Source: Hericium rajendrae (Eukaryota > Basidiomycota > Agaricomycetes > Russulales > Hericiaceae). From it: a stretch of DNA of 64,000 nt. A program made the position numbers and the translations under genes. Each line of letters begins with the position of its first letter. Position 1 is the first letter of the stretch. Below are positions 56 through 64,000 of the stretch, piece after piece. The stretch spans positions 1,674,001 through 1,738,000 of the forward strand of contig CM065889.1 of assembly GCA_033439255.1 (NCBI GenBank), given 5' to 3'. The notes beneath the pieces are model-generated. The model was not told where the DNA came from, made no database searches, and worked only from the letters and a program-made list of their open reading frames with translations.

Positions 56-132
56 GTGCGTAGAACCTTTTTTTTTCATTCTATCCACTAATGATGAGCA
101 CCTTCGCTCGAAACGAGCGAGTTGGTGCTCAT
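56..132 (+). other. Splice-donor + branch motif + hairpin module 1
   Basis: A donor-like GTGCGT follows AAG at 56. A T-rich run leads to CCACTAATGATG, and the CTAAT motif runs directly into a hairpin at 94-132 whose arms start ATGAGCACC and end GGTGCTCAT, with an inner CGCTCG/CGAGCG stem. The same order recurs at 181-258, 21797-21874, 32744-32819 (minus) and 34636-34711 (minus). The hairpin is seen directly; splicing is inferred. Confidence 0.5.
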
Positions 133-180
133 TTGAAGTTGGGCCTTGCTGGAACTGGGGAGGATTAGAGGACCAAGTAG

Positions 181-258
181 GTGAGTAATTAACTTTCTTA
201 TTTCATTCTATCAACTAATGAAGAGCACTGGTCGCTCGTTTCGAGCAAGTTGGTGCTC
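181..258 (+). other. Splice-donor + branch motif + hairpin module 2
   Basis: GTGAGT is followed 30 bases on by TCAACTAATGAAGAG and then an imperfect hairpin (223-258) with arms GAGCAC and GGTGCTC and a CGCTCG/CGAGC inner stem. It is a diverged duplicate of the module at 56-132 within the same element. Confidence 0.5.
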
Positions 259-261
259 GTT

Positions 262-311
262 GGAAGCCCACACCCATTGGAAGCCCACACCCATTGGAAG
301 CCCACACCCTG
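262..311 (+). repeat. 17-bp tandem repeat, about 3 units
   Basis: The unit GGAAGCCCACACCCATT occurs in nearly perfect tandem immediately after the second hairpin. The following stretch to about 470 is GC-rich and partly repeats the first 60 bases of the window (a CCAGC...TTAAGGTGCGTA-like stretch). Confidence 0.8.
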
Positions 312-480
312 CAACATCCTGTCTCTCCACTCCCTCCGACCTCCTTCATTGCCCACCAAGACTCGCGAGCCAGGTCCAACGGCCTCATATCCCACCTCAC
401 GCCCTCGAGCACAGCCCGCGGCACGTCCCGCCAGCATTTTGCAAGCTGCATAAGGTGCGTACCAACCAGACGTGTACAGG

Positions 481-1048
481 CCCAAAATTGCGACCGTTTG
501 ATCGCAATTTTGGGTCAGTATGCCTTGTTCTTGCTGTATATAGTGTGGGTAGCACCCACAGGCCGTGCAGAGCCAGAAATGTCACCGTTTGGTGACATTT
601 CTGGTTCTACATAACATGGTCCGTTGTGGGTAGCACTCACACTCGTACAGGCCCAAAATCACGACTGTTTGGTCGCAATTTTGGGTCTGTATGACCTGAT
701 CTCATTCTGCACCGTGCGGGTAGCTCCCGCGTGTCGTTTAGAACCAGAAATGTCACCGTTTGGTGATGTTTCTGGTTCTACATGAAATGTTTCATGTCCA
801 TCCTGTGTGGGTAGCACCCACACTCATATAGGCTCAAAATTGCGACCGTTTGGTCACGATTTTGGGTCTGTATGCCTAGTTCTTGCTGTGCATGATGTGG
901 GTAGCACCCACAGGCCGTGCAGGGGCAGAAATATCACCAGTCGGCGACGTTTCTGGTTCTACACGAGACGTTTCATGTCCATGGCATGTGGGTAGCACTC
1001 ACACATCGTACAAGCCCAAAATCATGACCAAATGGTCGCAATTTTGAG
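481..1048. repeat. Periodic array of three interleaved palindromes (A-B-C-B)
   Basis: Three unrelated inverted repeats alternate in fixed order. A is about 34 bp (CCCAAAATTGCGACC and its complement) at 481-514, 652-685, 833-866 and 1015-1048. B is GTGGGTAGCACCCAC-type at 544-560, 625-641, 716-730, 805-823, 896-912 and 987-1003. C is about 32 bp (CCAGAAATGTCACC and complement) at 573-604, 741-778 and about 923-958. The order is A B C B A B C B A B C B A with a 171-182 bp period. B at 716-730 reads GCGGG...CCCGC instead of GTGGG...CCCAC, a paired change that keeps the stem. A further small palindrome, CATGAAATGTTTCATG, lies at 781-796. Confidence 0.9.
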
Positions 1049-1133
1049 TCTGTATGATAGATCTTATTACTTACTTTGTGTAGTACTGCAGCTGCTTAAA
1101 AATATATACAGTCTATTGTACTTTGATCAGATG

Positions 1134-8079: not shown

Positions 8080-9010
8080 TTGGGTGCCATTGATTGTCTA
8101 AGCCCTGTTGAGACAGTATTGCACCTGTTGCAAAATCTGATGCATCACATTCAACATGAAAGAGTTTGTCATAGTCTGGCATGACAAGTACTGGAGAGGT
8201 GTTAAAGGCTGTTTTGAGTGCATCAAAGGCCTTTTAACATTCGGTAGTCCATTGCCAGGTATAAGTCTTCTTTGTGAGCTTGAAGAGTGGTTTGGCGACT
8301 TTAGAAAAATCTTGTATGAACCGGCAATAGAAATTGCCAAAATCCAGGAATGACTGGGTCTGTTTGACCATATTTGATCATATGGGGTTCCAACCATTGA
8401 ATAACACCATCCACTTTGACTGGGTCCATGTGAAGCTGGTTGTGAGAGATGATTAGGCCAAGGTATTCCACTTCTGCTTTTTCAAATGAGCATTTTTTCA
8501 GTTTGAGGAACAAATCATTGTCATGCAATCTGGTGAGGACTTGGCGTACAATCCGGCGATGTTCTTCCAGTGTTTCGGTGAAGACCAGGATATTGTCCAT
8601 GTAGATGTTGCCGTGATCGATCAGGTCTTTGAACAGAGTGTTCATCATTGCCTGGAATGTGGCTGGGGAGTTGGTCAGTCCGAAGAACATGACTGTTGGT
8701 TCAAATAGTCCTCGGCTGCAACGAAAGATGGCTTTGTGTTCATCACCTTCTTTGATACAAACATTGTTATACCCTCATCGTAGGTCAAACTTGGAGAATA
8801 CTTTGGTGCCTTTGAGTTTATCAACAAGTTCACCGATGAGCGGTAAGGGGTATTTGTTGTGTATGGTCCTTTTGTTGAGCTCTCGGTAGTCTTGAAGCAG
8901 TTGGAGTTTGCCATCTTTCTTGGATATGAAAAAGAATGGGGCAGCCCAAGAAAATTTAGATTCTCAAATGTATCCTTTGCAGAGATTTTCTTCTAGAAAC
9001 TTGTCAAGTT
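8080..9010 (-). pseudogene. Gypsy reverse transcriptase and RNase H N-terminus (relic)
   Basis: The frame holds [17 protein letters not shown], then FDLR-stop-GYNNV (TGA where the family has Trp), FFGLTNSPATFQAMMN and the active-site box as YMDN rather than YMDD. A frameshift near 8385 leads to the tether and RNase H start (FLDFGNFYCRFI, ATGAILSQQG), with TAA at 8234-8236 in place of a Gln codon. Integrase is missing. The Asp-to-Asn change at the polymerase centre would abolish activity. All breaks fit G-to-A on this strand or C-to-T. Confidence 0.9.
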
Positions 9011-10373: not shown

Positions 10374-10832
10374 TCATTCTAGTACAAGCTGGTCTTGTTC
10401 CCAATTGATGTTGGGGTTGTGTTCTCGCAGCCAGTCGGTTCCTAAGATCATGTCATCTTGTCCTAAATCTGTGATGTAAAATCGTGTCTTCTCTGTGTGT
10501 GTTGCATTCCCAGGTCCCTTGATTCCGATGCGTAAGACACAGTAATGGGTAATTTGACCAAGGGCATTTTCCGAGTCATCGACATTTTTGACTGAGATAG
10601 GTTTCATGAGGGGAATTGTCTTGATGTGATACTGGTTGACAATCCTCCAGTTGATAAGAATGCCTGTGGCTCCACTGTTCACCAGGCCTTTAACAGCGAA
10701 GTTTTGTTGTTTTCTTAAAATCATGATAATAATGCAGATATATGGAGAACCATTATATTTCAATGAGGATATGTGTAAATTGGCTGGCCAATTTGGTAAA
10801 TAAGAGTCCATTGAAACATCATCATCTGGCAT
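10374..10832 (-). pseudogene. Gypsy retropepsin-like aspartic protease (inactive)
   Basis: A 152-residue open frame has the retropepsin order: FAVKGLVNSGATGILIN for the active-site loop, then ITDLGQDDMILGTDWLREHNP. The catalytic motif is NSGA, whereas copy 2 (28018-28479) keeps DSGA, so this copy has lost the catalytic Asp by one G-to-A change on its strand. It processes the Gag-Pol polyprotein in active relatives. Confidence 0.85.
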
Positions 10833-10909
10833 CGAGAGTATATCAAAATGATTTGGAGAAGCAATTTGCAGACCTTTCGTCCTTCATGACATCGTGGCAT
10901 GAGGACGCT

Positions 10910-19311: not shown

Positions 19312-19758
19312 TTGGTAAAAGAGGGCCAATGCTTTGCATAGCAATACAATTTCTTTTTCATTGTTAGTTATATTTAGAAACAGTGCATAAATGATGTCAA
19401 GTCTTACTGGTCAGATTGATTATAACTCTTTATAAATTCTCTAGCTACCTTAAGGTCAAGATCTTAAAAGGAAGATCTCAATTTTGAGTTTTGATTTTTG
19501 AGTTCTGGATGGACTGGGGCCTATGTAGCATGTCTGGAAAGCAATTATTCAGTACATTCAGGCACAATTTAGAATGAGTGAATCAGTGGAGAACTGCTAG
19601 ACTTATTCTAAGGTCAAGATCTTAGAGGGGAGATCTCAGTGTTGAGTTTTGATTTTCAAGTTTTGGATAGTATGGGGTCTATGTAGCATGTCTGGAAAGC
19701 AATTAATCAGTACATCCCAGCTCAATTTAGAACGAGTAAATCAGTGGAGCACTAAATG
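19312..19758 (+). mobile_element. Short copy of the tRNA-like/150-bp-repeat composite
   Basis: It begins CTTGGTAAAAGAGGGCC and matches the left edge of the large composite at 20378. About two ~155-bp satellite units follow (AAGGTCAAGATCTTA...; TCTGGAAAGCAATTA near 19535 and 19691). It separates two parts of the helicase relic. Confidence 0.55.
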
Positions 19759-20233
19759 TTAAGCAATCAAGAGCATTCAAAATTATTGCAAATCATGCTG
19801 TGACTCCACAGTCTGAGCTGCTCAAGATGTATTTAGGGGGTATGGCTGGCACAGGCAAGTCACAAGTCATCAATACTATGATCAAGTTTTTTGAGCAGAG
19901 ACAAGAGTCTTACAAATTTTTAATCATGGCACCTACAGAAGCTGCAGCAGCTTTGATAGGAGGATCAACATACTATTCTATGTTAGCTATCAATAAATTT
20001 CAACCAGAAGGAGGCAAAGGTGTATCTACTCTGGCTGATATTCATACTAGGCTTCAACATGTTCAGTACATCTTTTTAGATGAGGTGTCTATGGTAGATT
20101 GCAATAGTTTATACAATATCAGTACCCAAATGAGCAGTGCACTTAAAGTAGAAGATCAGCCTTTTGGAGGTGTAAACATCATTCTTGTGAGTGACTTTGC
20201 TCAACTGCCTCCTTCTGCTAATAGTGCCTTGTA
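19759..20233 (+). pseudogene. Pif1/Helitron-type helicase, N-terminal fragment
   Basis: The frame begins near AFKIIANHAVTP and gives GMAGTGKSQVI (Walker A), FLIMAPTEAAAAL (motif Ia), YIFLDEVSMVD (Walker B) and VSDFAQLPPS (motif III). This is the ATPase half of a superfamily 1 Pif1-like DNA helicase, as in Helitrons and their captured relatives. It stops at a TIR-element insertion at 20234. No replication-initiator (Rep) domain is seen nearby, so a complete Helitron is not supported. Confidence 0.8.
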
Positions 20234-20377
20234 CATCAGTACTCTTACAAACTTTCTGCTAGATCTTATTCTGTCTGATCTTGTCTGATCACCTTATCTA
20301 CCTGACAGATTGGTCATTTCTGGCTAAAAACAAAATCAGGCAAGTCAAGCAGAGTCAGATTTTATCAGATATGCATT
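20234..20377 (-). mobile_element. First half of a split E4-family TIR element
   Basis: It starts CATCAGTACTCTTACAAAC and matches, in reverse complement, 38401 down to about 38258. The match stops at GCATTTAC and resumes at 25727. The element was inserted in the helicase relic. Confidence 0.75.
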
Positions 20378-20559
20378 TACTTGGTGAAAGAGGGCCGATG
20401 CTTCGCACGGCAATACGATTCCTTTTTCATTGTTAGTTATATTTAGAAACAGTGCATAAATGATGTAAAGTCTCACTTGTCAGATTGATTATAAATCTCT
20501 ATAAAATCTATAGCTACCTCAAGGTCAACATCTGAGAAATATGTTACTGGTATATAACA

Positions 20560-20760
20560 CTATATTAGCTACATAGCTTTTCTAGGTCCATAGCTGTCCT
20601 CTTTTATACATAGCAGTCAAGTAAACAATGCAAAGCTATCATAGCTTGTCATAGCTATCATAGCATAGGGCATAAGCTATCATAGTTGTCATAGTTATTC
20701 TAGTATAAGATAACTATAGAAGCTATATTAACTATATAATATATCTCTATCATTATATTA
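20560..20760. repeat. Left subterminal AGCTATCATAGCT-type repeats of E1
   Basis: Near-palindromic motifs such as AGCTATCATAGC and CATAGCTGTC recur every 10-30 bp. Matching clusters occur at 23190-23400, 27460-27640, 31195-31480, 33780-34090 and 38880-39130. They are candidate transposase-binding sites. Confidence 0.75.
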
Positions 20761-20899
20761 TATCTAGCTAGTAAGATTTCTATCTACTCTATATTACTTC
20801 TATCAAATATGCTAAAATAGCATATAAAATAAATATATTATAGATTCAATAGTCTGATGTTTTACAGTCACAAACATCGAAAATTGGATAAATTATATT

Positions 20900-21240
20900 A
20901 CTCAAACAATTTCATTACAAAACATTACTATAGCTACAGAGACTACTACAGAACTATAAAAGGTAACAAACTTACAATGACTACAAAAAGCAAAAGATAC
21001 AAATAAGAAAAGACATGAGTATTAGAAGATAACAAAGATAATATATGAAGACTTACCAGATTAACAAAAAAGTGAAAATCTACAAGACAATTTGAAGATC
21101 AGTATAAGAAACAATCAAGCTTACCTAGTAGGACTACATGGTAGTGTAATAAGTATGAAGACATTAGTATAAGTTATAAGATAATTAAGAATAACAGTGT
21201 ACCTTTAACAACAAAGAGAACAATAATAATAAAATGAGCA
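20900..21240 (-). repeat. Intron-like repeat array of E1 leader (minus strand)
   Basis: Read leftward, donor-like GGTAAG(T/C), branch-like ATACTAATG and acceptor-like TTTTTGTAG motifs recur downstream of the promoter, with tandem copies of TTGCTCA-containing leader repeats at about 21240-21320. It resembles the longer array in E4. Confidence 0.5.
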
Positions 21241-21379
21241 AATGACAACGACGAGTGAGCAAATGATGACGATGAGTGAGCAAATAATGACAAGTGAGCA
21301 AATGATGACAACAAATGTGTTGACGTGGCAAGGGATGGTGGGGGTTAAAGAGCAAGAGGTAAAGCGCATCGTGCCAGCC

Positions 21380-21386
21380 TTATATA
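21380..21386 (-). promoter_or_regulatory. TATATAA box of E1
   Basis: On the minus strand CTATATAAGG is followed by GGCACGATGCGC and, further on, CTCTTTAACCCCCACCATC. The same arrangement occurs at 26773 and 33233. Confidence 0.65.
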
Positions 21387-21796
21387 GGAATCTCAGACGG
21401 AATCGGAATTTGTGGTTGCTGGGTGCTTGCCGAGTGTTGTGGCAGAAACTGGATGCCAGACTTTACTACGTTGATGCTGCTGCTCACAGATTCACAGTTC
21501 AGTAGATACACAGTGTTCTCATACATTCTAATTAAATGTATAATCTATCACTGTCCCTTTTTTCGTTGAATTTATACAAGTTTATTTGATTTGCTGAGGC
21601 TCGAGCAACAAAGCTTTGCTCATTCAGTGGCTGAAGCACCGAGTTTAACATGTCGAGACTTCACTCCTTTTTACCAGTCTCCCTTTCCCTCCTTCGTGTT
21701 TCCTCCTCCAGCCTCCTTCCTTCCATTTCTTTCATTCTCTATTGGCTTTCAATACGGCTGGGATGGTTTTTTTAGCAGATACTTAGAGGGCCTTAG

Positions 21797-21874
21797 GTGA
21801 GTAAAAAAAAAAGCCTCTTATCATTTTTTCATACTAATCAAGAGAGTGTCAATCATTTTTCGAGCGACACTCTC
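21797..21874 (+). other. Donor + branch motif + hairpin module of E1
   Basis: GTGAGT at 21797 is followed by an A- and T-rich stretch, CATACTAATCAAGAG and then a hairpin with GAGAGTGTC (21842-21850) pairing with GACACTCTC (21866-21874). The upstream leader (about 21560-21796) is pyrimidine-rich as in E2 and E3. Confidence 0.6.
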
Positions 21875-21889
21875 GATATCTTTTATTCT

Positions 21890-23090
21890 GTTGATCCCAC
21901 ATCCTCGCGCTATCATCCTATGATCCTGCTGCCTTTTTTGCACTCTCATCGCCCCTTCCTTGGCCTGTCTACGCCACATCCACGCCCTGCACACAGCTCG
22001 TACACCCCATGCCTGACTCCAACAGGCTGCGACCCCTGCGCATGCCTCCGACCACCATCTCCTTCCACGTGCACCAGCATGCACAAGGCTACAGCATGCG
22101 TGCATGTGTGTACCACGTGACGTCATCTGCACGATGTCAACAACATGTGCACACAGGCCACGTCATCACCCATGCCCCACGTCCGTGCATGTGCATGCAC
22201 CATAGTCCCGTTGCCATGGCAATGGGACTCGGACGTCATTCATGCCTATCGGCCACGACCCCACATGCTCGCCTCAATCCCTGCAAGGCCTCATGCTCAC
22301 GTTCAACACCGTGCACGCTTGCAATGTCCTGTCCATGCACTCAAGCCCCCACACCCACTCACAACACCCTGCACCTGCTCACAACGCCTCGGACATGCAT
22401 GCCATGCCCGGTTGCATGTATGCTCCTGCACCTGCTCAACTCAACATGCCCTGCGTGTGTGCACATCGATCTGCACAGGTGCACAACAATCACACATGCG
22501 TGACGTGCCATACAGTGCCTCTTTGTGCATGCAGAATGTTCTGCAGGCCCGCTTCAGGCCTCCTGCACATGCTCGACACCTGCGCGTGCCCGACATCCCC
22601 CGCACGTGTCCAGCTCCACCTCCACATGTGCACAGATGCCAGTGCATGGTGGCACTGCAAGACCCCATCCCACAACAATGCATGCACGACACCCAGCATT
22701 CACACTCAATGCCACTTGCCCACAACGCCCTGCATGCGCGCATGCTCTCGCGTGCCTGCTCAACACCCCGCACCCTCCAGATGCTCTGCGTACATGCGCA
22801 ACATCCCACATGCATGTACACAACCTGCATGCATGCACAGCAGCCCTGACCCCATTTGTGGGCATGGCCACCCGCATGCAGCTACACATGGTCCAGCTTG
22901 CCGTGCATGGACCATGTATGCTGTGTGCGGCCCACGCCTACCTCTGTGCTCTCTGTGCTGGCATTCGTGCATGCCGCACCACCTTTTGTATGTACATGCT
23001 GTCTTTTGTGTGCCTGCGCTGTCTTTGCACCTGTGCCTGTACCCTCCACAGTGACTTGCATGCCCTCCGCATCCTGTGCCCTATGCAGTA
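21890..23090 (+). other. C-rich, CpG-decayed core of E1
   Basis: The strand is C-rich with very many TGCATG/CATGCA words. It aligns in plan, and partly in sequence, with the reverse complement of the E2 core, which instead has GCGTGCG-type CpG-rich words. Long open frames exist in several frames at once, have no domain and low complexity, and look non-coding. Confidence 0.6.
22204..22229. repeat. Central palindrome of E1 core
   Basis: AGTCCCGTTGCCATGGCAAT continues to GGGACT, a 26-bp inverted repeat with one mismatch. It lies at the same place as TCGAGTCTCGTTGCC... at 32281 in E2, with a different stem sequence. Confidence 0.75.
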
Positions 23091-23426
23091 GCTCAACTAG
23101 CTTATATATGTATGGTAGTAGATTTATTACAATTTATTATGATAAATTCTGACTTGTAATATCTGGTGCTTATCTGACTTGTGGTAGTAATCATAGGCAT
23201 CATAGTAGCCATAGCACACCTTGTTAATCATGATAGCCCTATGTATATCAGACTACAAGCTATGGAGGCTATGATAACCCTATGAATGTCACACTGTCTG
23301 CTATGTAGGCTATGATAGCTCTCATAGCTCTACATAGCTGGATAAGCAAACTTCATAGCTCTGATAGCTCAATGATAGCACCTATAATGTAACCTGCAGC
23401 TATGTCAAATTTAAATTTCTCAGATG

Positions 23427-28619: not shown

Positions 28620-31040
28620 TTACAGGTCAGACTCACTCATCTGTTGCATGGCTTGAGCCATTGTGAAGAGGAAAGTAGGGGTTTCTATCTCAGTGTTCCT
28701 GGCATTGACTGACCCTCCTGCTGTAGCTCTGGTAGAGGAGGGTTGTCCATTCTGATTGCGATAGAACATTGCAACATGACCTGTTCCTCTACATTTGTAG
28801 CAGAGATTGTTGGTGTGATGATGTTCACACTCTTCTGGAGACAAATGAGGGCCTTGGTATTTGCCGGGGCGACATTGGAATGCTCCAACCAAGACTTTGG
28901 CTGAGTCTATGTCTGAGCAGCATTGTGAGTCCTTGGAGAGTGTTTCCAACAGCTGGTTGGGATATAAGAAACTTCCCCTTCCCTTGGTCTAGTCTTGGTC
29001 AGAGCGGCTCTCTCGAAGGTGCATGTCCAGCATGGTGGCTCTATTCTGCCAATCAAGAAGGGTCTTTGGAGGATTCTCTGCAATGGTTATCTGCTTTGAG
29101 ATCTCGCTGTTGAGGCCTTTCTTGTAGGTACTGATGAGTCCCACACCATTAAGGAGAGAGAGGTCAGCCAGCATGTTAAAAGTGGTGATGTATTCATCGA
29201 CACTCCTGTTTCCTTGTCTGAGACACTGGATGTCAAAGAGGGCTGATTCTGCATCATGGATCTCTCTGAACTGCTTATGGAGGTCTGCTTTGAACTTGGC
29301 CCATGTGAGGGCTTCTTTCCCATCTTCTTTGAGTTCATCAAGTTGGTTGAAGTACTTGGCTGCCCAGGGTCCTGCAGTGCCTCCCTGGATGTAGGAAAGG
29401 GTGAAGTAGATCTGTGTGACTGCATCAGGAAATTGATCAGCTTTAAGTTTGAAATGGAGTTTGCATTGGCTGATGAACTCCTTGAGCTTGGTGCAAACAC
29501 CCGTAAAAGGTGTCGGCTTATTGACATCTGGACCCTTTGCCATCTCGTCTTCTTCATCACTGTCACTCTCTGCTGGGTCAATGTATCAGGAAGCTCCTAA
29601 ACTTTCTGAGATAGTCTGGCATTTTTACAATAATTGCAGCTACTGCAGAGTCTGATACACCTGTTACAAATTCTCATATGTTAATATCTCATTGAATATT
29701 TAGCTTAAACAGTAAAGACCTCTTGTCAGATGTAGTAGTTATCTATCTTTAATTATTAAATATAATACAATTTCTCTAATCTAAAATTTACAAAAATCTT
29801 TTGTTGTCTGAGATCATTTCTGACTGAATCTGGTAGTCAAATAATCTGACACTGTCTGATACTGTCTGATTCTATCTTAACCTAACTAATAGCTCTCTGA
29901 CATCATCTGATATATCTGACTTGACTCGCACGATGTCCTGCAGATCCTGCAGATTTTCACAAGTCAAATCAGAAAGTTTAGAGGCTTCCTGATGTGGTTC
30001 TTTGGAGATCTCCAAGTCCCAAGAGGTCATGGGTTGGGTCTGTGGTAAAGGGTAATGGGCAGAGTGCTGGGTCTAGTGTTGGATTGAAGGGCTCAAGGAC
30101 AGGTCTTCTAATGGTTCTTGCTGTGAGGGGAGAGCTATTGGAGGGTTCCAAGTTGCTGTCTGGGTCTTCTTTAGGATTGGATGTCCTAGGTAGAGGAACC
30201 GGTGTTTCGAAGATGGGGTCTGGGATGGAAGGTAGGGAGATGGAGGGGTCAATGGAAGATGCTGCTTTAGAACTCTGGAGTTCCTCAAGTTCACTGGCCA
30301 GGGTTTCACTGATCCTAGAATCAGCATAGGAAAAGGTGGGGTAGGAGCATAATAGGTGACAGGTCTGGTAAGGTCGACCTGTTCTTCCTGGATTCAGGTG
30401 TCTCTAGTTGTTCCATATAGGATATAGAATTGGTGCATCTTGTGGTCAAACTGGTAGTGGATTTTATTGATATCATCATAGAGGTAGCTAGATGATTAAG
30501 TCCTAGGAAATGTCAGAGTAGAGAGGAGTACACGCTCAGATTGTTGGACTATTTGCCTGTGTCATTCTCCTTTGAGTAGATAGTTTGTTCTGTAGAATTC
30601 TGCTGGGGCATTTTCCTTGGTAGAAGTGACTTTCTTTTCTTTCCTCCAAATCCTTATGAGTTTGCCATCTTCATTGTGGTATATCAAATCCTTGTTGTAG
30701 TAAAGGAGGTCTGCTGCTTCGTTTTAGGTGTAGAGTTTTGGCCACATCTTGATTCTACAGATTTGGTAAGGGGTTGCTTGATCCTCCTCTAAGTAGCAAC
30801 AATGTGTCCTATCTTTGTCAGATAATTGGTTATCTGATGATCTGAGAGGAATGTATAGGGGAACGAGAGGAGCAATGGTGATGTTTGGTGAGGGGGGTGA
30901 CTCCGGTGTATGGAGTAGACCCTAAAGATCTTCACAGAAGATTCTTGATGGTGGATGGAATGGTAGCAGTCTGTTGTTGAGACTGTAGACCAGTTTGTGT
31001 AGGGTGAGCAGTAGGAGAGCTTAACCAAGTGCTAAGGACT
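28620..31040 (-). pseudogene. Gypsy Gag, copy 2 (split by a MITE)
   Basis: The capsid part (28989-29543) is open for 184 residues (MAKGPDVNKPTPF; ALTWAKFKADLHKQF; LRQGNRSVDEYITTF). A zinc knuckle follows (CYKCRGTGHVAMFY, in which the last Cys has become Tyr). The N-terminal part above 29994 is broken by several stops. Loss of the fourth zinc ligand would weaken RNA binding. Confidence 0.8.
29584..29994. mobile_element. Divergent MITE (TATCAGGAAGC...) in gag
   Basis: The 411-bp element starts TATCAGGAAGCTCCTAAAC and ends in the complement GGCTTCCTGATG. TG flanks both ends, and copy 1 near 12332 has the uninterrupted site (GGGTCAATAGCTC). It is a third subfamily of the CATCAGGA group. Confidence 0.85.
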
Positions 31041-31182: not shown

Positions 31183-31559
31183 CATCTCAAAAATGTGAAA
31201 TCTACATAGCTACCAGCCAATGCTATGCTTGCTTTTATAGTGCTATGGCTGCTATGTAGTTGGGCTGCACAACTATACAGAAGTATGAGAGCTATCATAG
31301 CTGCCATAGCTATGGGTGATAGCTATGTAGTACTACATAGCTATAGCACACTACTATGTCTGCTATGTAAGTTATATGTTTGAGTCTTCTTCTATGTAAG
31401 CTATGGATGCTATGTTCAATATACAGCTTCATAAGGCTGCTATGGAACCTCAGGTTGCTATACAGTCTGTAGGAGTCTATAGTTTCTAGCATTGTAATGT
31501 ATTACGACATTGAGGTAATTACACAACATTGAACTACTACAATATACTACATACAAAGT

Positions 31560-32740
31560 GGTTCGGTACTGGCATATGTGAAATCGTCGTCATCGCGGAC
31601 TCGCCCACACTGTCGCCAACACGACCTGTGCGCGGAGCTGACAGCCCCGCGTACGCAAGTCGAAACGGCAGCAGACACGTTACATGTGTCCGCCTTGTAC
31701 GTGCTGGCGCGGGGCGCGAGTCACAGCAGACGGCGCGCGGGGTGTACGGGGAGAGGCGGCGCGGCGACGGTGACATCGCAGGCGAGGGCACTGGGTGTCG
31801 TGCGCGCATCGTACGTGGAATGCGAGCGCAGTCCGGTGCATACGAAGGCGTGCACAAACAGGCGCGCACTGACGGGGACAGACGCGGCCGTGCGTGCGCA
31901 GTCCATAGCGTGCGTACGTAGTCGGCGGTGTGAACGGGTGAGCGGCAGTCGGCGGCGTGCGCCGGCAGGCGTGCATGCGCTGCTGGGGCCATGTGCGAGA
32001 TGTGCGGGTCGCGCGCGCTGCTTGGCTCATGCGCGTGCTGCGGCCGTGCGTGGGCCGTTAGGTCCGAGCTGGGCGGACTGAGGCTCTGCGCAACGCGGGC
32101 GTGCACACGCATACGCCGGCGTGCGTACGCTGCTGGTCTGCGTGTGCTGGCGCGAGCCTGTCGCACCGTCCGCTGGCGTAGATGGGCGTGGCGCTGTGCT
32201 GGCGCTGTCGTGCGGGGCCGTGCGCACGCGTGTTCGCGTGCGGGAGCAAGCGACGCAGTACGTGGCCGCACGACGCGTTATCGAGTCTCGTTGCCACGGC
32301 AACGAGACTCGACGTTGGCCTTGCTGGCCATCCACGGGACATGAGCAGGCTCTTGAGGCCGTTCACATGGTTGTTGGGAGTGCGGGGACGTGTGGGTGGG
32401 GGATACGCGCGTGTGTGGGTGTTGGGAGTGCGTATGCGTGGCGTTGGCCGATGGCGAGCCGGCGGGATCCCCGTGCGTTGTCGCGGCTGCGTGCACGGGA
32501 CGGAGCCCGTCGAAACCGCGCGTGGGTGACGTGTCGGGATGCCCGAGCACCCGCGGGCTGTGGCAAACAGGCGGGGGGTCGCTGATTGACGTGTCGGCGG
32601 CGCGGGAGTGGGCTATCGAAGGCGTGGGCGTGGGCTGTCGAAGGCGCGGGCACGGGGAGAGAGACAGGCGCGGGCGGTGCGTGGGAGGCGGAGTAGGGTG
32701 TCGAATGGCACGCGGGCGGGGAGTGTCGAAGAGCATGCAA
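31560..32740 (-). other. CpG-rich core of E2
   Basis: About 1.2 kb of strongly GC-rich DNA full of GCGTGCG/GTACG words is bounded by AT-rich arms. Overlapping long frames on both strands (for example 31537-32271) are Arg/Ala/Pro/His-rich, have no domain and are not conserved in E1, so I treat the core as non-coding. Confidence 0.6.
32281..32312. repeat. Central palindrome of E2 core
   Basis: TCGAGTCTCGTTGCC pairs with GGCAACGAGACTCGA around a 2-base centre. It is equivalent in position to 22204-22229 in E1. Confidence 0.85.
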
Positions 32741-32743
32741 GAA

Positions 32744-32819
32744 CGAGAGTCTCGCTCGATAACGAGCGAGACTCTCGAGATTAGTAGATACAATGGAAAT
32801 TAAAGCCTTAGAGACTCAC
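32744..32819 (-). other. Donor + branch motif + hairpin module of E2
   Basis: On the minus strand GTGAGT (donor G at 32819) is followed by TCTACTAATCTCGAGAG, and the 34-bp hairpin at 32744-32777 has perfect 15-bp arms (CGAGAGTCTCGCTCG). The stem sequence is unlike those in E0, E1 and E3. Confidence 0.65.
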
Positions 32820-33009
32820 CTTAGGCCACTCTGACTCCTACAAGACCCTTCCGGCTTCGAATGGAGGAGAAAGGGGGTTGTTCGAGCGAAGAGAGTGCAA
32901 CGAGGCGCGAAGGGAAGGATGTAACAAGAGGTAAATGCAGGACACAAGTCGAGCGACGCCTTCGGTTCTTCAGCCACACGCGAGTTTGAACGTTTTCGAA
33001 CGTAGTAAA

Positions 33010-33240
33010 TCATATAAAATCAGCTAAAATCGGAAAAAACGTGTACTGCTAGCTTTCGTTGGTACAATGTGATTGTATCAGATCCATGTCTAGGTAATGT
33101 ACTGTAAGCTACTGAGAAACGAAATGAAGTTAGCAGCATCTGGGACTTAGCCTCTGATGCCGTGCGCGGCAGCTCTCGGGCCGGGCCCCGACAGCCACAT
33201 TTGTGGCTCCGCCGGGCAAACCCGCGCTCACCTATATAAG
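33010..33240. promoter_or_regulatory. Divergent promoter region of E2 with TATATAAG box
   Basis: TATATAAG at 33233-33240 leads rightward into GCACGATGCGCGTCC and CTCTCCAACCCCCATCATC. On the other strand TTTTATATGATTTACTACG leads leftward into the pyrimidine-rich leader. E1 and E3 have homologous divergent arrangements. Transcription itself is inferred. Confidence 0.6.
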
Positions 33241-33339
33241 CCTCGCACGATGCGCGTCCTCTCTCTCTCTCCAACCCCCATCATCTCTCGTCTGTCGTCT
33301 CTCGCTCATCGTCTAACGTCTCTCGCTCATCGTCTCTCG

Positions 33340-33640
33340 TGTCTTGCTCATTGTAAGTTATTTCTTGCTCGTTGTCTCGTTTCTTGCTCATTGTCTGTTG
33401 TTTCTCGCTCGTCATTTTTATTTCATATTCTCTAGCATTTGGTAAGTCATCTCTTTTCTGTCTTTGTTGACTAATGCTTAATGTTCTTATCTTATAGATT
33501 ACATTTTCGCTTTCTTTGTTTGTTATGGCTTCTTATTTTATGATGTAAGCCTTCTAAGGTTGTTTTATTAGTTTATATTTTGATTTTTTTCGGTAAGGTC
33601 TAGTTTATGTTAATGTTATGTTTGTTAATATTATATTGTA
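33340..33640 (+). repeat. Intron-like leader steps of E2
   Basis: Donor-like TTGTAAGTTA and TTGGTAAGTC, branch-like GACTAATGC and acceptor-like CTTATAG/TTTTCGCTTTC stretches follow TTGCTCATTGTC-type leader repeats. It is a shorter version of the array in E4. Confidence 0.5.
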
Positions 33641-34101
33641 TCTTGTAGCATTATATATAGTAGTTATTGTGATGTAGTATTAGTTGGTCAATGCAATATA
33701 AATTTGTTCAAATAACAAATAAAATTATATTTATTTTGTGATAAATTGAATTAATCTTGACTAGTCACTTTTATAAGCTGATAAGGCTTTATAGTCAACT
33801 AAGAATATATATAGTTTTGATAGCTTTTATATCTTGCATAGATGAATTAAGTCTATCTATTCAGTATAGCATATGTCAATAGCATAGATCTGATAGCCTT
33901 GATAGATAGACATACTATGATAGCTGCATAGTCAGCTCTCATAGCTATGATAGCACTCCATAGCATCTCCCTTGAGCTTCATAGCACTATATAGCATTCC
34001 CCTTTAGCTATGCTGGCTATAGAGAAAAGGGCAGTGCTATGGAACTATGAAATCTATGTAGACTTCATAGAGCTATGTACCACTTACACATTTTTCAGAT
34101 G

Positions 34102-34635: not shown

Positions 34636-34711
34636 GAGAGTATTGCTCAAATTTGAGCAATACTCTCTGCATTAGCAAACATACAAAATAAAAGGGTTTT
34701 GATTTACTTAC
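34636..34711 (-). other. Donor + branch motif + perfect hairpin module of E3
   Basis: On the minus strand GTAAGT (donor G at 34711) leads to GTTTGCTAATGCAG and a perfect 32-bp palindrome (34636-34667) whose arm is GAGAGTATTGCTCAAA. Here the branch-like motif is followed at once by a possible acceptor GCAG. Confidence 0.65.
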
Positions 34712-35439: not shown

Positions 35440-36370
35440 CCTTATCTCAATTACAAAAAAAGCAAAAAAGGCTACAAATATAACAACATCAGGCTGAAAA
35501 ATATAACAAAGATTATAAGACTTATCTTAGAACTACCAAAAAAGTGAAACAGACTACAAAAATCACAACCTTACCTTATAATGACTACAAAAAAGCAAAA
35601 ATGAATCTGAAAAACTATAACTTTATTAGTCTTAACAAGAATACAAAGATAACAAAACTTATCTTAGAAGTGTAGTCAAGACTACAAAAAGCAAAAATCT
35701 ACTAAAAAGATAACAATATAAAAGTAAGGAATATAAGAAAGATAACAAAGCTTACCTTAAAAGTACACCAAAGTCTACAAAAAGTGAAAATGTAAGGAAA
35801 GATAGCAAAACAGAACTTACAATGATAAGAAAGACTACAAAAAAGCGAAATATAGTGAAAAGATTACAACATTAGTGTAAGCAAGATAAGAAAGATAACA
35901 AATTATACCTTAGAAGTATAACAAAGACTACAAAAAAGCGAAAATGAACTAGAAAGATAACAAACCTTATCTTACAGTTGTAGCAATGACTACAAAAAAG
36001 CGAAAGTAACAAAAAGATAACAACATTAGTTGTAATCAGATAACAAAGATAACAAACCTTACCTTAACAATGTAACAAACACTACAAAAAGCGAAAAGAT
36101 AACAATTTAAAAGGTAACAAACCTTACCTTGCAGTTGTAGCAATAACTACAAAAAAGCGAAAGTGTACAAAAAAGATAACAACATTAGTGTAAGGAACAT
36201 AACAAAGATAACAAATACTTATCTTAGAAGTGTAGTAACACTACAAAAAAGCGAAAAAGATCAGAAAGATAACAAAGTCAACAATACTTATCTTAGGAGT
36301 AGTAGTCACATAACTACAAAAAAGCAAAAATGAAGTCAAAGGTAACAAAGATAACAAACTTACCTTCAAG
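35440..36370 (-). repeat. Serial intron-like array (donor / branch / acceptor motifs) in E4
   Basis: Read on the minus strand after a leader CTGCAACCACCACCATCTC, about eleven acceptor-like GCTTTTTTGTAG motifs recur (plus-strand CTACAAAA near 36313, 36239, 36147, 36081, 35989, 35928, 35833, 35774, 35689, 35584, 35553). Each is followed 15-30 bases later by a donor-like AAGGTAAG or AAGATAAG. Longer units also contain a branch-like ACACTAATGTTG. Spacing alternates long (about 85-105) and short (about 60-75), giving a dimeric period near 155 bp. Splicing is inferred from motif order only. Confidence 0.6.
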
Positions 36371-49444: not shown

Positions 49445-52344
49445 CATCTGAGAAATATGTTACTGGTATATAACACTATATTAGCTACATAGCTTTTCTA
49501 GGTCCATAGCTGTCCTCTTTTATACATAGCAGTCAAGTAAACAATGCAAAGCTATCATAGCTTGTCATAGCTATCATAGCATAGGGCATAAGCTATCATA
49601 GTTGTCATAGTTATTCTAGTATAAGATAACTATAGAAGCTATATTAACTATATAATATATCTCTATCATTATATTATATCTAGCTAGTAAGATTTCTATC
49701 TACTCTATATTACTTCTATCAAATATGCTAAAATAGCATATAAAATAAATATATTATAGATTCAATAGTCTGATGTTTTACAGTCACAAACATCGAAAAT
49801 TGGATAAATTATATTACTCAAACAATTTCATTACAAAACATTACTATAGCTACAGAGACTACTACAGAACTATAAAAGGTAACAAACTTACAATGACTAC
49901 AAAAAGCAAAAGATACAAATAAGAAAAGACATGAGTATTAGAAGATAACAAAGATAATATATGAAGACTTACCAGATTAACAAAAAAGTGAAAATCTACA
50001 AGACAATTTGAAGACATCAGTATAAGAAACAATCAAGCTTACCTAGTAGGACTACATGGTAGTGTAATAAGTATGAAGACATTAGTATAAGTTATAAGAT
50101 AATTAAGAATAACAGTGTACCTTTAACAACAAAGAGAACAATAATAATAAAATGAGCAAATGACAACGACGAGTGAGCAAATGATGACGATGAGTGAGCA
50201 AATAATGACAAGTGAGCAAATGATGACAACAAATGTGTTGACGTGGCAAGGGATGGTGGGGGTTAAAGAGCAAGAGGTAAAGCGCATCGTGCCAGCCTTA
50301 TATAGGAATCTCAGACGGAATCGGAATTTGTGGTTGCTGGGTGCTTGCCGAGTGTTGTGGCAGAAACTGGATGCCAGACTTTACTACGTTGATGCTGCTG
50401 CTCACAGATTCACAGTTCAGTAGATACACAGTGTTCTCATACATTCTAATTAAATGTATAATCTATCACTGTCCCTTTTTTCGTTGAATTTATACAAGTT
50501 TATTTGATTTGCTGAGGCTCGAGCAACAAAGCTTTGCTCATTCAGTGGCTGAAGCACCGAGTTTAACATGTCGAGACTTCACTCCTTTTTACCAGTCTCC
50601 CTTTCCCTCCTTCGTGTTTCCTCCTCCAGCCTCCTTCCTTCCATTTCTTTCATTCTCTATTGGCTTTCAATACGGCTGGGATGGTTTTTTTAGCAGATAC
50701 TTAGAGGGCCTTAGGTGAGTAAAAAAAAAAGCCTCTTATCATTTTTTCATACTAATCAAGAGAGTGTCAATCATTTTTCGAGCGACACTCTCGATATCTT
50801 TTATTCTGTTGATCCCACATCCTCGCGCTATCATCCTATGATCCTGCTGCCTTTTTTGCACTCTCATCGCCCCTTCCTTGGCCTGTCTACGCCACATCCA
50901 CGCCCTGCACACAGCTCGTACACCCCATGCCTGACTCCAACAGGCTGCGACCCCTGCGCATGCCTCCGACCACCATCTCCTTCCACGTGCACCAGCATGC
51001 ACAAGGCTACAGCATGCGTGCATGTGTGTACCACGTGACGTCATCTGCACGATGTCAACAACATGTGCACACAGGCCACGTCATCACCCATGCCCCACGT
51101 CCGTGCATGTGCATGCACCATAGTCCCGTTGCCATGGCAATGGGACTCGGACGTCATTCATGCCTATCGGCCACGACCCCACATGCTCGCCTCAATCCCT
51201 GCAAGGCCTCATGCTCACGTTCAACACCGTGCACGCTTGCAATGTCCTGTCCATGCACTCAAGCCCCCACACCCACTCACAACACCCTGCACCTGCTCAC
51301 AACGCCTCGGACATGCATGCCATGCCCGGTTGCATGTATGCTCCTGCACCTGCTCAACTCAACATGCCCTGCGTGTGTGCACATCGATCTGCACAGGTGC
51401 ACAACAATCACACATGCGTGACGTGCCATACAGTGCCTCTTTGTGCATGCAGAATGTTCTGCAGGCCCGCTTCAGGCCTCCTGCACATGCTCGACACCTG
51501 CGCGTGCCCGACATCCCCCGCACGTGTCCAGCTCCACCTCCACATGTGCACAGATGCCAGTGCATGGTGGCACTGCAAGACCCCATCCCACAACAATGCA
51601 TGCACGACACCCAGCATTCACACTCAATGCCACTTGCCCACAACGCCCTGCATGCGCGCATGCTCTCGCGTGCCTGCTCAACACCCCGCACCCTCCAGAT
51701 GCTCTGCGTACATGCGCAACATCCCACATGCATGTACACAACCTGCATGCATGCACAGCAGCCCTGACCCCATTTGTGGGCATGGCCACCCGCATGCAGC
51801 TACACATGGTCCAGCTTGCCGTGCATGGACCATGTATGCTGTGTGCGGCCCACGCCTACCTCTGTGCTCTCTGTGCTGGCATTCGTGCATGCCGCACCAC
51901 CTTTTGTATGTACATGCTGTCTTTTGTGTGCCTGCGCTGTCTTTGCACCTGTGCCTGTACCCTCCACAGTGACTTGCATGCCCTCCGCATCCTGTGCCCT
52001 ATGCAGTAGCTCAACTAGCTTATATATGTATGGTAGTAGATTTATTACAATTTATTATGATAAATTCTGACTTGTAATATCTGGTGCTTATCTGACTTGT
52101 GGTAGTAATCATAGGCATCATAGTAGCCATAGCACACCTTGTTAATCATGATAGCCCTATGTATATCAGACTACAAGCTATGGAGGCTATGATAACCCTA
52201 TGAATGTCACACTGTCTGCTATGTAGGCTATGATAGCTCTCATAGCTCTACATAGCTGGATAAGCAAACTTCATAGCTCTGATAGCTCAATGATAGCACC
52301 TATAATGTAACCTGCAGCTATGTCAAATTTAAATTTCTCAGATG
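49445..52344. mobile_element. E1, second occurrence
   Basis: It repeats 20529-23426 with the same CATCTGAGAAAT ends and AA flanks. The TATATAA box is at 50298-50304, the donor-hairpin module at 50715-50792 and the core at about 50808-52008. Two bases differ in number near 50014. Confidence 0.85.
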
Positions 52345-60096: not shown

Positions 60097-63015
60097 CATC
60101 TCAAAAATGTGAAATCTACATAGCTACCAGCCAATGCTATGCTTGCTTTTATAGTGCTATGGCTGCTATGTAGTTGGGCTGCACAACTATACAGAAGTAT
60201 GAGAGCTATCATAGCTGCCATAGCTATGGGTGATAGCTATGTAGTACTACATAGCTATAGCACACTACTATGTCTGCTATGTAAGTTATATGTTTGAGTC
60301 TTCTTCTATGTAAGCTATGGATGCTATGTTCAATATACAGCTTCATAAGGCTGCTATGGAACCTCAGGTTGCTATACAGTCTGTAGGAGTCTATAGTTTC
60401 TAGCATTGTAATGTATTACGACATTGAGGTAATTACACAACATTGAACTACTACAATATACTACATACAAAGTGGTTCGGTACTGGCATATGTGAAATCG
60501 TCGTCATCGCGGACTCGCCCACACTGTCGCCAACACGACCTGTGCGCGGAGCTGACAGCCCCGCGTACGCAAGTCAAAACGGCAGCAGACACGTTACATG
60601 TGTCCGCCTTGTACGTGCTGGCGCGGGGCGCGAGTCACAGCAGACGGCGCGCGGGGTGTACGGGGAGAGGCGGCGCGGCGACGGTGACATCGCAGGCGAG
60701 GGCACTGGGTGTCGTGCGCGCATCGTACGTGGAATGCGAGCGCAGTCCGGTGCATACGAAGGCGTGCACAAACAGGCGCGCACTGACGGGGACAGACGCG
60801 GCCGTGCGTGCGCAGTCCATAGCGTGCGTACGTAGTCGGCGGTGTGAACGGGTGAGCGGCAGTCGGCGGCGTGCGCCGGCAGGCGTGCATGCGCTGCTGG
60901 GGCCATGTGCGAGATGTGCGGGTCGCGCGCGCTGCTTGGCTCATGCGCGTGCTGCGGCCGTGCGTGGGCCGTTAGGTCCGAGCTGGGCGGACTGAGGCTC
61001 TGCGCAACGCGGGCGTGCACACGCATACGCCGGCGTGCGTACGCTGCTGGTCTGCGTGTGCTGGCGCGAGCCTGTCGCACCGTCCGCTGGCGTAGATGGG
61101 CGTGGCGCTGTGCTGGCGCTGTCGTGCGGGGCCGTGCGCACGCGTGTTCGCGTGCGGGAGCAAGCGACGCAGTACGTGGCCGCACGACGCGTTATCGAGT
61201 CTCGTTGCCACGGCAACGAGACTCGACGTTGGCCTTGCTGGCCATCCACGGGACATGAGCAGGCTCTTGAGGCCGTTCACATGGTTGTTGGGAGTGCGGG
61301 GACGTGTGGGTGGGGGATACGCGCGTGTGTGGGTGTTGGGAGTGCGTATGCGTGGCGTTGGCCGATGGCGAGCCGGCGGGATCCCCGTGCGTTGTCGCGG
61401 CTGCGTGCACGGGACGGAGCCCGTCGAAACCGCGCGTGGGTGACGTGTCGGGATGCCCGAGCACCCGCGGGCTGTGGCAAACAGGCGGGGGGTCGCTGAT
61501 TGACGTGTCGGCGGCGCGGGAGTGGGCTATCGAAGGCGTGGGCGTGGGCTGTCGAAGGCGCGGGCACGGGGAGAGAGACAGGCGCGGGCGGTGCGTGGGA
61601 GGCGGAGTAGGGTGTCGAATGGCACGCGGGCGGGGAGTGTCGAAGAGCATGCAAGAACGAGAGTCTCGCTCGATAACGAGCGAGACTCTCGAGATTAGTA
61701 GATACAATGGAAATTAAAGCCTTAGAGACTCACCTTAGGCCACTCTGACTCCTACAAGACCCTTCCGGCTTCGAATGGAGGAGAAAGGGGGTTGTTCGAG
61801 CGAAGAGAGTGCAACGAGGCGCGAAGGGAAGGATGTAACAAGAGGTAAATGCAGGACACAAGTCGAGCGACGCCTTCGGTTCTTCAGCCACACGCGAGTT
61901 TGAACGTTTTCGAACGTAGTAAATCATATAAAATCAGCTAAAATCGGAAAAAACGTGTACTGCTAGCTTTCGTTGGTACAATGTGATTGTATCAGATCCA
62001 TGTCTAGGTAATGTACTGTAAGCTACTGAGAAACGAAATGAAGTTAGCAGCATCTGGGACTTAGCCTCTGATGCCGTGCGCGGCAGCTCTCGGGCCGGGC
62101 CCCGACAGCCACATTTGTGGCTCCGCCGGGCAAACCCGCGCTCACCTATATAAGCCTCGCACGATGCGCGTCCTCTCTCTCTCTCCAACCCCCATCATCT
62201 CTCGTCTGTCGTCTCTCGCTCATCGTCTAACGTCTCTCGCTCATCGTCTCTCGTGTCTTGCTCATTGTAAGTTATTTCTTGCTCGTTGTCTCGTTTCTTG
62301 CTCATTGTCTGTTGTTTCTCGCTCGTCATTTTTATTTCATATTCTCTAGCATTTGGTAAGTCATCTCTTTTCTGTCTTTGTTGACTAATGCTTAATGTTC
62401 TTATCTTATAGATTACATTTTCGCTTTCTTTGTTTGTTATGGCTTCTTATTTTATGATGTAAGCCTTCTAAGGTTGTTTTATTAGTTTATATTTTGATTT
62501 TTTTCGGTAAGGTCTAGTTTATGTTAATGTTATGTTTGTTAATATTATATTGTATCTTGTAGCATTATATATAGTAGTTATTGTGATGTAGTATTAGTTG
62601 GTCAATGCAATATAAATTTGTTCAAATAACAAATAAAATTATATTTATTTTGTGATAAATTGAATTAATCTTGACTAGTCACTTTTATAAGCTGATAAGG
62701 CTTTATAGTCAACTAAGAATATATATAGTTTTGATAGCTTTTATATCTTGCATAGATGAATTAAGTCTATCTATTCAGTATAGCATATGTCAATAGCATA
62801 GATCTGATAGCCTTGATAGATAGACATACTATGATAGCTGCATAGTCAGCTCTCATAGCTATGATAGCACTCCATAGCATCTCCCTTGAGCTTCATAGCA
62901 CTATATAGCATTCCCCTTTAGCTATGCTGGCTATAGAGAAAAGGGCAGTGCTATGGAACTATGAAATCTATGTAGACTTCATAGAGCTATGTACCACTTA
63001 CACATTTTTCAGATG
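60097..63015. mobile_element. E2, second occurrence
   Basis: It repeats 31183-34101 with GG flanks. The core is at about 60474-61654, the palindrome at 61195-61226, the donor-hairpin module at 61658-61733 and TATATAAG at 62147-62154. One G-to-A difference lies at 60577, at a CpG. Confidence 0.88.
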
Positions 63016-63383: not shown

Positions 63384-64000
63384 TGCATTGGCATGTTGTC
63401 AATGGAGGTGGACACTGGTGACATGACAGCGAGGTGATGTGATGGTGAAGTGGTGAGGTGGTGAGGTCAGAGAGGAGATGGGGTGATGGTGGAGGGACGA
63501 GGATGGGATGAGGATGGGATGAGGATGGGCACGAAAGGATGAAGTTGTCGAGAGTATTGCTCAAATTTGAGCAATACTCTCTGCATTAGCAAACATACAA
63601 AATAAAAGGGTTTTGATTTACTTACCTATGTTCCTCAACTTCCTACACATCTCTCTCCAGTGTTTGGTTCGACGATAAGAGAGAGAGGAGGAAGAGAGAA
63701 GAGGGAGGAGGAAGGGAGAGGAGTGAGAAGTGGTAAAGTCGAGATGAAGTTTGATGCATGTTTCAGTGCAGCAGCCACTAAACACACGTGCTCGAACATT
63801 TTCAAGCTTCATAAATCAAATAAAATAGAATAAATTCTGAAAAAAAGAAAAACACTCTTATATACTCATAAGATACAATTGAATACTAATTATGGTACTA
63901 CGAGCTACTCGACAGCAAGATGAAGTTAGTAAAATCTGCAACTAAGCTTCTGATGCAGTGTCTGGCAGTGTCCGAGCCAAGTCACAGCAGTCACATTTTG
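63384..64000 (+). mobile_element. E3, second occurrence, cut by window end
   Basis: It repeats 34470-35086. The perfect hairpin is at 63550-63581 and its donor at 63625. The window ends before the site where E4 is inserted in the first occurrence, so whether E4 is present here is unknown. Confidence 0.8.

Follow-up and report, generated by a model that had tools for sequence, protein, structure and literature searches.

Why should the opening part of an intron, with a splice donor, a branch-point motif and a hairpin placed right behind it, recur again and again in one stretch of fungal DNA? Introner and introner-like elements and fungal stwintrons are introns, or parts of introns, that multiply in fungal genomes. 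The stretch studied here, called the window below, comprises 64,000 nucleotides of Hericium rajendrae (contig CM065889.1, positions 1,674,001 to 1,738,000). An initial annotation, made from the letters of the window, described five such modules and proposed that the hairpin controls the choice of 3' splice site, blocks splicing or yields a stable lariat. Here the modules are located in the window and in the genome, their carrier is described, and the possible roles of the hairpin are weighed.

All five modules were borne out where they had been reported, starting at 56, 181, 21797 and, on the minus strand, 32819 and 34711, and 3 nt separate CTAAT from the hairpin in 5/5 (Table 1). Altogether the window contains these five modules and three duplicates, the latter inside a segmental duplication of 23 kb in which 12067-35086 is repeated at 40979-64000 with 99.94% identity. 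The duplication may be either real or an assembly artefact, and because of it the second copies of the E1, E2 and E3 modules are not independent. The AG at 21863-21864 is unpaired, because the upper stem of E1 is broken. E0a and E0b have an AAG 6 nt past the hairpin. Beside the E0 modules, window 455-1065 is filled by tandem long-stem hairpins in which CCCAAAATTGCGACC.. alternates with CCAGAAATGTCACC.., interleaved with GTGGGTAGCACCCAC; among the sampled genomic loci (L numbers), L028 has related sequence and L113 has such hairpins.

Table 1. Modules, carrier elements and associated features, in window coordinates.
Feature	Position	Strand	Details
E0a module	56..138	+	donor GTGCGT 56, CTAAT 88-92, hairpin 96-130, AAG end 138
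E0b module	181..266	+	donor GTGAGT 181, CTAAT 215-219, hairpin 223-258, AAG end 266
E1 TIR transposon	20529..23426	+	2898 bp, CATCTGAGAAATATG...TTTAAATTTCTCAGATG, AA/AA flanks; second copy 49445-52344
E1 5' splice donor GTGAGT	21797..21802	+	exon end ...GGCCTTAG
E1 branch-point motif CTAAT	21834..21838	+	presumed branch A 21837; 37 nt 3' of donor
E1 hairpin	21842..21874	+	lower stem 9 bp, GAGAGTGTC/GACACTCTC; upper stem broken
E1 candidate 3' splice site, first AG past hairpin	21995..21996	+	CACACAG, 120 nt on
E1 second palindrome	22204..22229	+	AGTCCCGTTGCC-AT-GGCAATGGGACT
E2 TIR transposon	31183..34101	-	2919 bp, CATCTGAAAAATG.../...CATTTTTGAGATG, GG/GG flanks; second copy 60097-63015
E2 second palindrome	32281..32312	-	15 bp perfect, about 508 nt past donor
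E2 candidate 3' splice site, first AG past hairpin	32635..32636	-	TTCGACAG, ACAG, 108 nt on
E2 hairpin	32745..32776	-	14 bp perfect, loop TTAT; 15 bp counting flanking C-G
E2 branch-point motif CTAAT	32780..32784	-	
E2 donor GTGAGT	32814..32819	-	
E3 first AG past hairpin	34502-34501	-	ACCAG, 133 nt on
E3 module	34636..34711	-	donor GTAAGT 34711, CTAAT 34675-34671, hairpin 34667-34636
E1 module, second copy	50715..50792	+	inside 23-kb duplication
E2 module, second copy	61659..61733	-	inside 23-kb duplication
E3 module, second copy	63550..63625	-	inside 23-kb duplication

The module is not confined to the window. Across the genome (46,767,965 bases in 19 contigs), a pattern of donor, branch motif and 5' arm, GGTRAGT-N20..45-CTAAY-N1..10-GAGNGT, has 404 matches (at least two places being entered twice) against 2 for the reversed pattern, and a pattern that holds no part of the hairpin, GTRAGTAAAAA-N14..34-TYRTRCTAAY, has 246 against 0. 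Among 60 copies of the 5'-arm pattern, 59 modules could be parsed and 53 of the 59 passed the hairpin score. The stem is shorter in four of the six that failed (L029, L030, L044, L052) and lost in L040, and the sixth, L088, is by its looks an ordinary host intron. A strong hairpin is also found in 18 of 20 copies of the hairpin-free pattern that were absent from the listed matches of the first, compared with 34 of 640 random places in 80 loci, a control that is if anything too high because hairpins of minus-strand loci were kept in. Thus the hairpin, whose absence from most genomic copies the initial annotation had named as the outcome that would speak against it, is present in the large majority of those sampled. 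Starting from the motif instead, 30 of 723 CTAA[TC] sites in the window and the first loci have a hairpin scoring at least 9 within 0-7 nt, against 49 of 7030 random positions; a donor-like GT lies upstream of 29 of these 30, which take in two duplicate pairs of the window.

The geometry is constant. In nearly all parsed copies the spacer between CTAAY and the stem is 3 nt, and its three bases are variable, neither CAG nor TAG being conserved there. The branch motif itself is altered in L026, a copy of E1. Modules also occur in series within one locus: L014 has five on its minus strand, and L020 and E0 have two each. Those of L014 (about 9247-7690) are spaced ~300-500 nt apart, and another starts on the opposite strand from about 9618, a back-to-back arrangement that suggests a divergent promoter.

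What carries the module? The initial annotation gave its account without a superfamily of terminal inverted repeat (TIR) transposons, in which many of the modules sit. E1 and E2 are bounded by TIRs of the CATCWGARAAA type, with CATCTCAAAAA at one end of E2, and L009 holds a 98.6% copy of E2. TIRs and 2-bp target duplications bound all 12 delimited elements (E1, E2 and ten loci, L013 once its end had been corrected by 1 base), so the delimited elements have both marks of a TIR DNA transposon, the repeats and the target-site duplication. These elements span 2.5-3.3 kb, and the donor is set more than 1.1 kb inward; measured from the left end, a donor-branch match puts it at 1157-1283 nt in 10 of 11 (E2 and the ten loci). 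In L022 a donor-like site at 1154 and a hairpin are present, with no CTAAY between them. The association extends beyond the delimited set: with 115 listed module places from both patterns, a same-strand module lies 1146-1773 nt inside 30 of the 42 exact TIR ends listed on contigs 1-3, while the other strand gives 0 and shifted places give 0, 1, 0 and 1.

Two other kinds of carrier were considered and set aside. A Helitron would have a 3' hairpin followed by CTRR and neither TIR nor duplication, and the delimited elements have TIRs and duplications. An introner or introner-like element is likewise rejected for these, given that TIRs and 2-bp duplications bound 2.5-3.3 kb in 12 elements and the donor lies more than 1.1 kb inside. 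Other mobile sequences are present nearby. A PIF1-like helicase ORF at 19740-20288 on the plus strand is perhaps from a Helitron, and ORFs for a Ty3-type capsid (28989-29585) and a retroviral-type aspartyl protease (10374-10883), both on the minus strand, belong to LTR retrotransposons. Outside the modules, Pfam families in 10 ORFs of the window and 10 of the loci included gag, protease, integrase, PIF1 helicase, Ulp1, F-box and Yae1.

The elements themselves appear to be non-autonomous and their presumed transcript non-coding. None of ten element ORFs (four of E1, five of E2, one of L017) matched a Pfam family. Past the hairpin, the one pair compared, L010 and L011, differs by indels of 2, 1, 23, 3, 1, 29, 17, 5, 1 and 3, and coding there was judged unlikely because these are mostly not multiples of three. 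On the other side, substitutions between the two are somewhat uneven by codon position (32, 31 and 18), and ATG-started open frames reach 406 aa in L017. Structured RNA of a known family was not found in the window either, with no Rfam match at gathering score and no tRNA in a tRNA scan. Plavaka transposases, considered as a candidate mobilizer that would share the TIRs, are abundant in the genome with 132 matches; the end motif CATCWGARAWA was absent from all 4 Plavaka loci searched, each about 4 kb, a length at which the element ends may fall outside. At C3:1368106-1372509, a Plavaka match stops where a TIR end and a module are located (1368993, 1370766) and continues from 1372234, which would fit insertion of a member of the TIR superfamily into a Plavaka gene.

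Several sequence features accompany the module in its carriers. In a number of elements a second palindrome, GTCGAGTCTCGTTGCC..GGCAACGAGACTCGAC or AGTCCCGTTGCC..GGCAATGGGACT, lies 367-510 nt past the donor. A long hairpin (CGTTCGGTGGCTGAACCACCGAA) stands in the presumed first exon of L025 at 8400-8456 and also in L010, there 163 nt ahead of the donor. In the window, 35450-36360 of the minus strand is a tandem array that by eye consists of apparent mini-introns and exons of about 19 nt (GTAAGG..ACTAATG..TTTCGCTTTTTTGTAG), and units similar to it occur in the left arm of E1.

The hairpin is kept although its sequence is not. Stem sequences differ by family (GAGAGTATCGCTCG, GAGAGTCTCGCTCG, GAGAGTACCGCTCG, GAGTGTCGCTCG, GCGAGTATCGCTCG, and GAGCACC in the E0 type). 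In an alignment of 78 distinct rows with hairpin-less ones kept, 58 of them chosen by the pattern that holds the start of the 5' arm, 93.5% of cells are paired, against at most 51.3% when the partner is shifted by 1-3 columns. An earlier alignment gave 90.6%, a figure that is biased because 21 of its rows were picked by the presence of a hairpin and the rest came from the list in the initial annotation. The check for covariation on genomic copies that had been suggested there turned out positive: in the 78 rows, 10 of 14 stem pairs show changes on both sides (53 cells, shuffled mean 14.1). Folded with their flanks, E2 (z -3.28), E3 (z -6.46) and E0a (z -6.35) are more stable than shuffles, E1 is only weakly so (z -2.00) and E0b is no better than shuffles (z -0.89). 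In 13 of 13 distinct E1 copies the upper stem is broken (GCTCG to AATCA; AATCG in L026), with 8-9 lower pairs kept in the 11 copies counted.

Does this conservation reflect selection on RNA? The earlier claim that structure is kept without sequence is true in that the stems differ and pairing persists, but selection on RNA is not thereby shown. G-U pairs number 40 against 35 A-C mismatches when four hairpin-less rows are left out, and 44 against 42 with all 78 rows; this lack of a G-U excess may reflect decay of dead copies or upkeep at the DNA level. The loops point the same way. Among 89 distinct modules, TTAT occurs 8 times, ATAA 7, AATA 0 and TATT 1, and when related modules with loops of equal length but different sequence are paired, 31 of 72 pairs are exact reverse complements and none are reversed only or complemented only, with the qualification that two-base AA/TT and AAAA/TTTT pairs are ambiguous and the pairs are not independent. 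For these two reasons, the absence of a G-U excess and the reverse-complement loops, covariation is no proof of RNA selection.

Both observations fit a palindrome maintained as DNA. Template switching in replication (quasi-palindrome correction), and not selection on RNA, would then preserve the match between the arms, and the palindrome may have a role in the DNA steps of transposition. Without a G-U excess there is no sign of a strand bias, DNA template switching could invert loops and so account for the reverse complements, and further palindromes lie in the same elements. According to one study (PMC8794818), template switching can give rise to hairpins, keep them and invert their loops, although in rRNA that study found compensatory changes together with loop inversion to be very rare. 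We nevertheless consider the DNA account unlikely. It leaves unexplained why the stem keeps a fixed 3-nt distance from CTAAY, why the donor is conserved and why AG is depleted past the hairpin, and correction of this kind has left the broken upper stem as it is in all 13 distinct E1 copies inspected. Because covariation is no proof of RNA selection here, a reading in terms of splicing rests mainly on signal geometry and AG depletion.

The AG depletion is pronounced. In the first 60 nt past the hairpin, 54 copies contain 5 AGs, compared with 48.7 in composition shuffles (minimum of 1000, 29), and 84 GAs; these copies are what remained of the 59 after L040, L088, L052, L032 and L044 were dropped as degenerate or non-members, L032 among them passing the hairpin score. 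A second set, the 18 of 20 copies of the hairpin-free pattern, contains 5 AGs where 20.3 are expected (minimum 9), and 15 GAs. With one copy per sequence cluster (16), there are 2 AGs against 17.0 expected, and 14 of the 16 clusters are free of AG against 5.7 expected (maximum of 1000 shuffles, 12). AG is also about two-fold low 80-240 nt downstream, and TA, GG and AA are low too, so part of the depletion is composition.

Where, then, would the intron end? Counting from the stem in all 72 copies, the first AG comes before 30 nt in 7, at 30-60 nt in 3 and at 60-110 nt in 37; in the other 25 it comes at 110 nt or more or is missing from the first 150 nt. Thus 10 of 72 have an AG no more than 60 nt past the hairpin. 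The base before it is C in 33, G in 12, T in 11 and A in 2 of all 72 copies, with C or T in 43 of 52 in the 54-copy set, while in the 18-copy set the first AG is frequently ACGAG or ATGAG. A second CTRAY near the distal AG shows no excess (4 of 48, shuffled mean 6.6). Depletion followed by a mostly CAG or TAG site would be the mark of a distant 3' splice site, for which this first AG is the candidate acceptor. A strict exclusion zone has no AG at all between branch point and acceptor; here the depletion holds past the hairpin, yet the 54 copies carry 185 AGs in the stretch from CTAAY to the end of the hairpin. Stem pairing takes up 146 of these completely, 34 precede or straddle the start of the stem, a few nucleotides from the branch point, and 5 are inside and not fully paired.

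A rival reading is a short intron, in which the GAG at the base of the stem would be the 3' splice site and exon 2 would begin with the hairpin. The arrangement CTAAY-NNN-GAG does put the end of an AG 7 nt past the branch A in most copies, and in E3 and some others the spacer makes a CAG just before the stem. GAG is a poor 3' splice acceptor, however, the variable spacer offers no conserved CAG or TAG in its place, and the AG depletion downstream would have no explanation, which makes this reading highly unlikely.

We favor instead, at what we judge to be even chances, that the module forms the 5' portion of a spliceosomal intron in an apparently non-coding transcript of a large superfamily of non-autonomous TIR transposons, and that the hairpin steers the choice of the 3' splice site. 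The signals and their spacing, the hairpin with its conservation, the depleted AGs and the place in the element can be read from the DNA; we infer that the element is transcribed and actually spliced, that the distal AG is used and that the fold forms in RNA. U1 would pair with GTRAGT and U2 with CTAAY. The hairpin, beginning at the fifth nucleotide past the branch A, would hide the earliest AGs by pairing (GAGAG in the 5' arm, CGAGC in the 3' arm). With the first AGs so paired, the second step would run through the C/T-rich, AG-poor stretch and would end at a distal, mostly CAG or TAG site, usually at least 60 nt beyond the hairpin. Among the roles offered by the initial annotation, control of the 3' splice site is therefore the one that gains from the data: AG is depleted until a mostly CAG/TAG site, most AGs before that point are stem-paired, and no second branch-point-like motif marks the distal AG.

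Several facts speak against a structured intron of this kind. A stem so near the branch A might hinder U2/SF3b. A distance above 100 nt from branch to acceptor is odd for a fungus, and the ordinary-looking intron of L088 has 10 nt. AG masking fits poorly with E1, where the CGAG is enclosed by the lower stem yet unpaired. The AG-free zone is partly lacking in the E0 type: E0a, E0b and three of eight E0 relatives (L117, L119 and L120) have an AAG within a few nucleotides past the hairpin; L113, L114, L115, L116 and L118 have no close AAG.

The first of these objections is turned into a function if the hairpin blocks or slows splicing, so that U2/SF3b is hindered at the branch point and a stalled spliceosome or a retained intron regulates the element or feeds RNAi. 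In Cryptococcus, poorly spliced transposon introns have been proposed to feed RNAi, and literature joining the terms stalled spliceosome, transposon and RNAi exists for that genus; the start of the stem at the fifth nucleotide past the branch A and the stable folds of the E2 and E3 modules would suit such a block. It gives no reason for the AG depletion or for the C or T before most first distal AGs, and we hold it to be improbable. That the hairpin caps the lariat tail and yields a stable lariat or intron RNA is highly unlikely: 3 nt past CTAAY it would presumably halt 3' to 5' trimming at the branch, but a 14-bp stem is below the length for Dicer.

The preferred reading, steering of the 3' splice site by a hairpin, can be set beside known systems. 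Like introners and stwintrons, the modules are intron parts multiplied in a fungal genome; unlike them, the mobile unit is a TIR element of 2.5-3.3 kb that contains intron signals, and not an intron that invades genes. The carriers resemble non-autonomous TIR DNA transposons in their TIRs, short target duplication and lack of a recognized protein, and differ from them in a conserved internal splicing module, which mobilization by TIRs alone would not lead one to expect. In yeast, cryptic acceptors can be hidden by stems that lie between branch point and acceptor (PMC12350175), and the hairpin described here would likewise be able to hide cryptic AGs in that interval. Compared with those yeast introns, the stem here sits 3 nt past CTAAY, is near-perfect in most copies, recurs at hundreds of sites in one genome and is usually followed by the next AG only at least 60 nt beyond it. 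Human introns with distant branch points have AG exclusion zones, and AGs very near the branch point can be bypassed (PMC1431707). With the human introns so described the module shares an AG-poor, C/T-rich run to a distal candidate acceptor, whereas here an AG-holding hairpin opens the zone, the host is a fungus and the sequence is that of a transposon. Searches of the open literature on Hericium transposons, fungal introners, TIR elements with introns and hairpins, branch-point hairpins, and DNA transposons with branch point and stem-loop, which leave most subscription journals outside their coverage, listed no paper that describes such a module. A structured intron with AG exclusion would be of a known kind, and its transposon carrier would be the unusual part.

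Most work on how folds between branch point and acceptor steer the choice of 3' splice site has dealt with single introns or with yeast. The genome examined here supplies natural variants by the hundred, in which the geometry is fixed, the stems change, loops occur inverted and a few copies are broken. If these variants are spliced, they would form a ready-made test set for how RNA folding guides splicing. They also carry a warning, in that template switching on DNA can keep stems that are near-perfect and covary. It is conceivable, though doubtful, that a spliced and structured non-coding RNA helps the superfamily to propagate, the intron being kept in hundreds of copies for its choice of 3' site or its lariat and being needed in expression, in escape from silencing or in mobilization. 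If the modules are spliced, why would transposons without recognized coding capacity keep a spliced leader?
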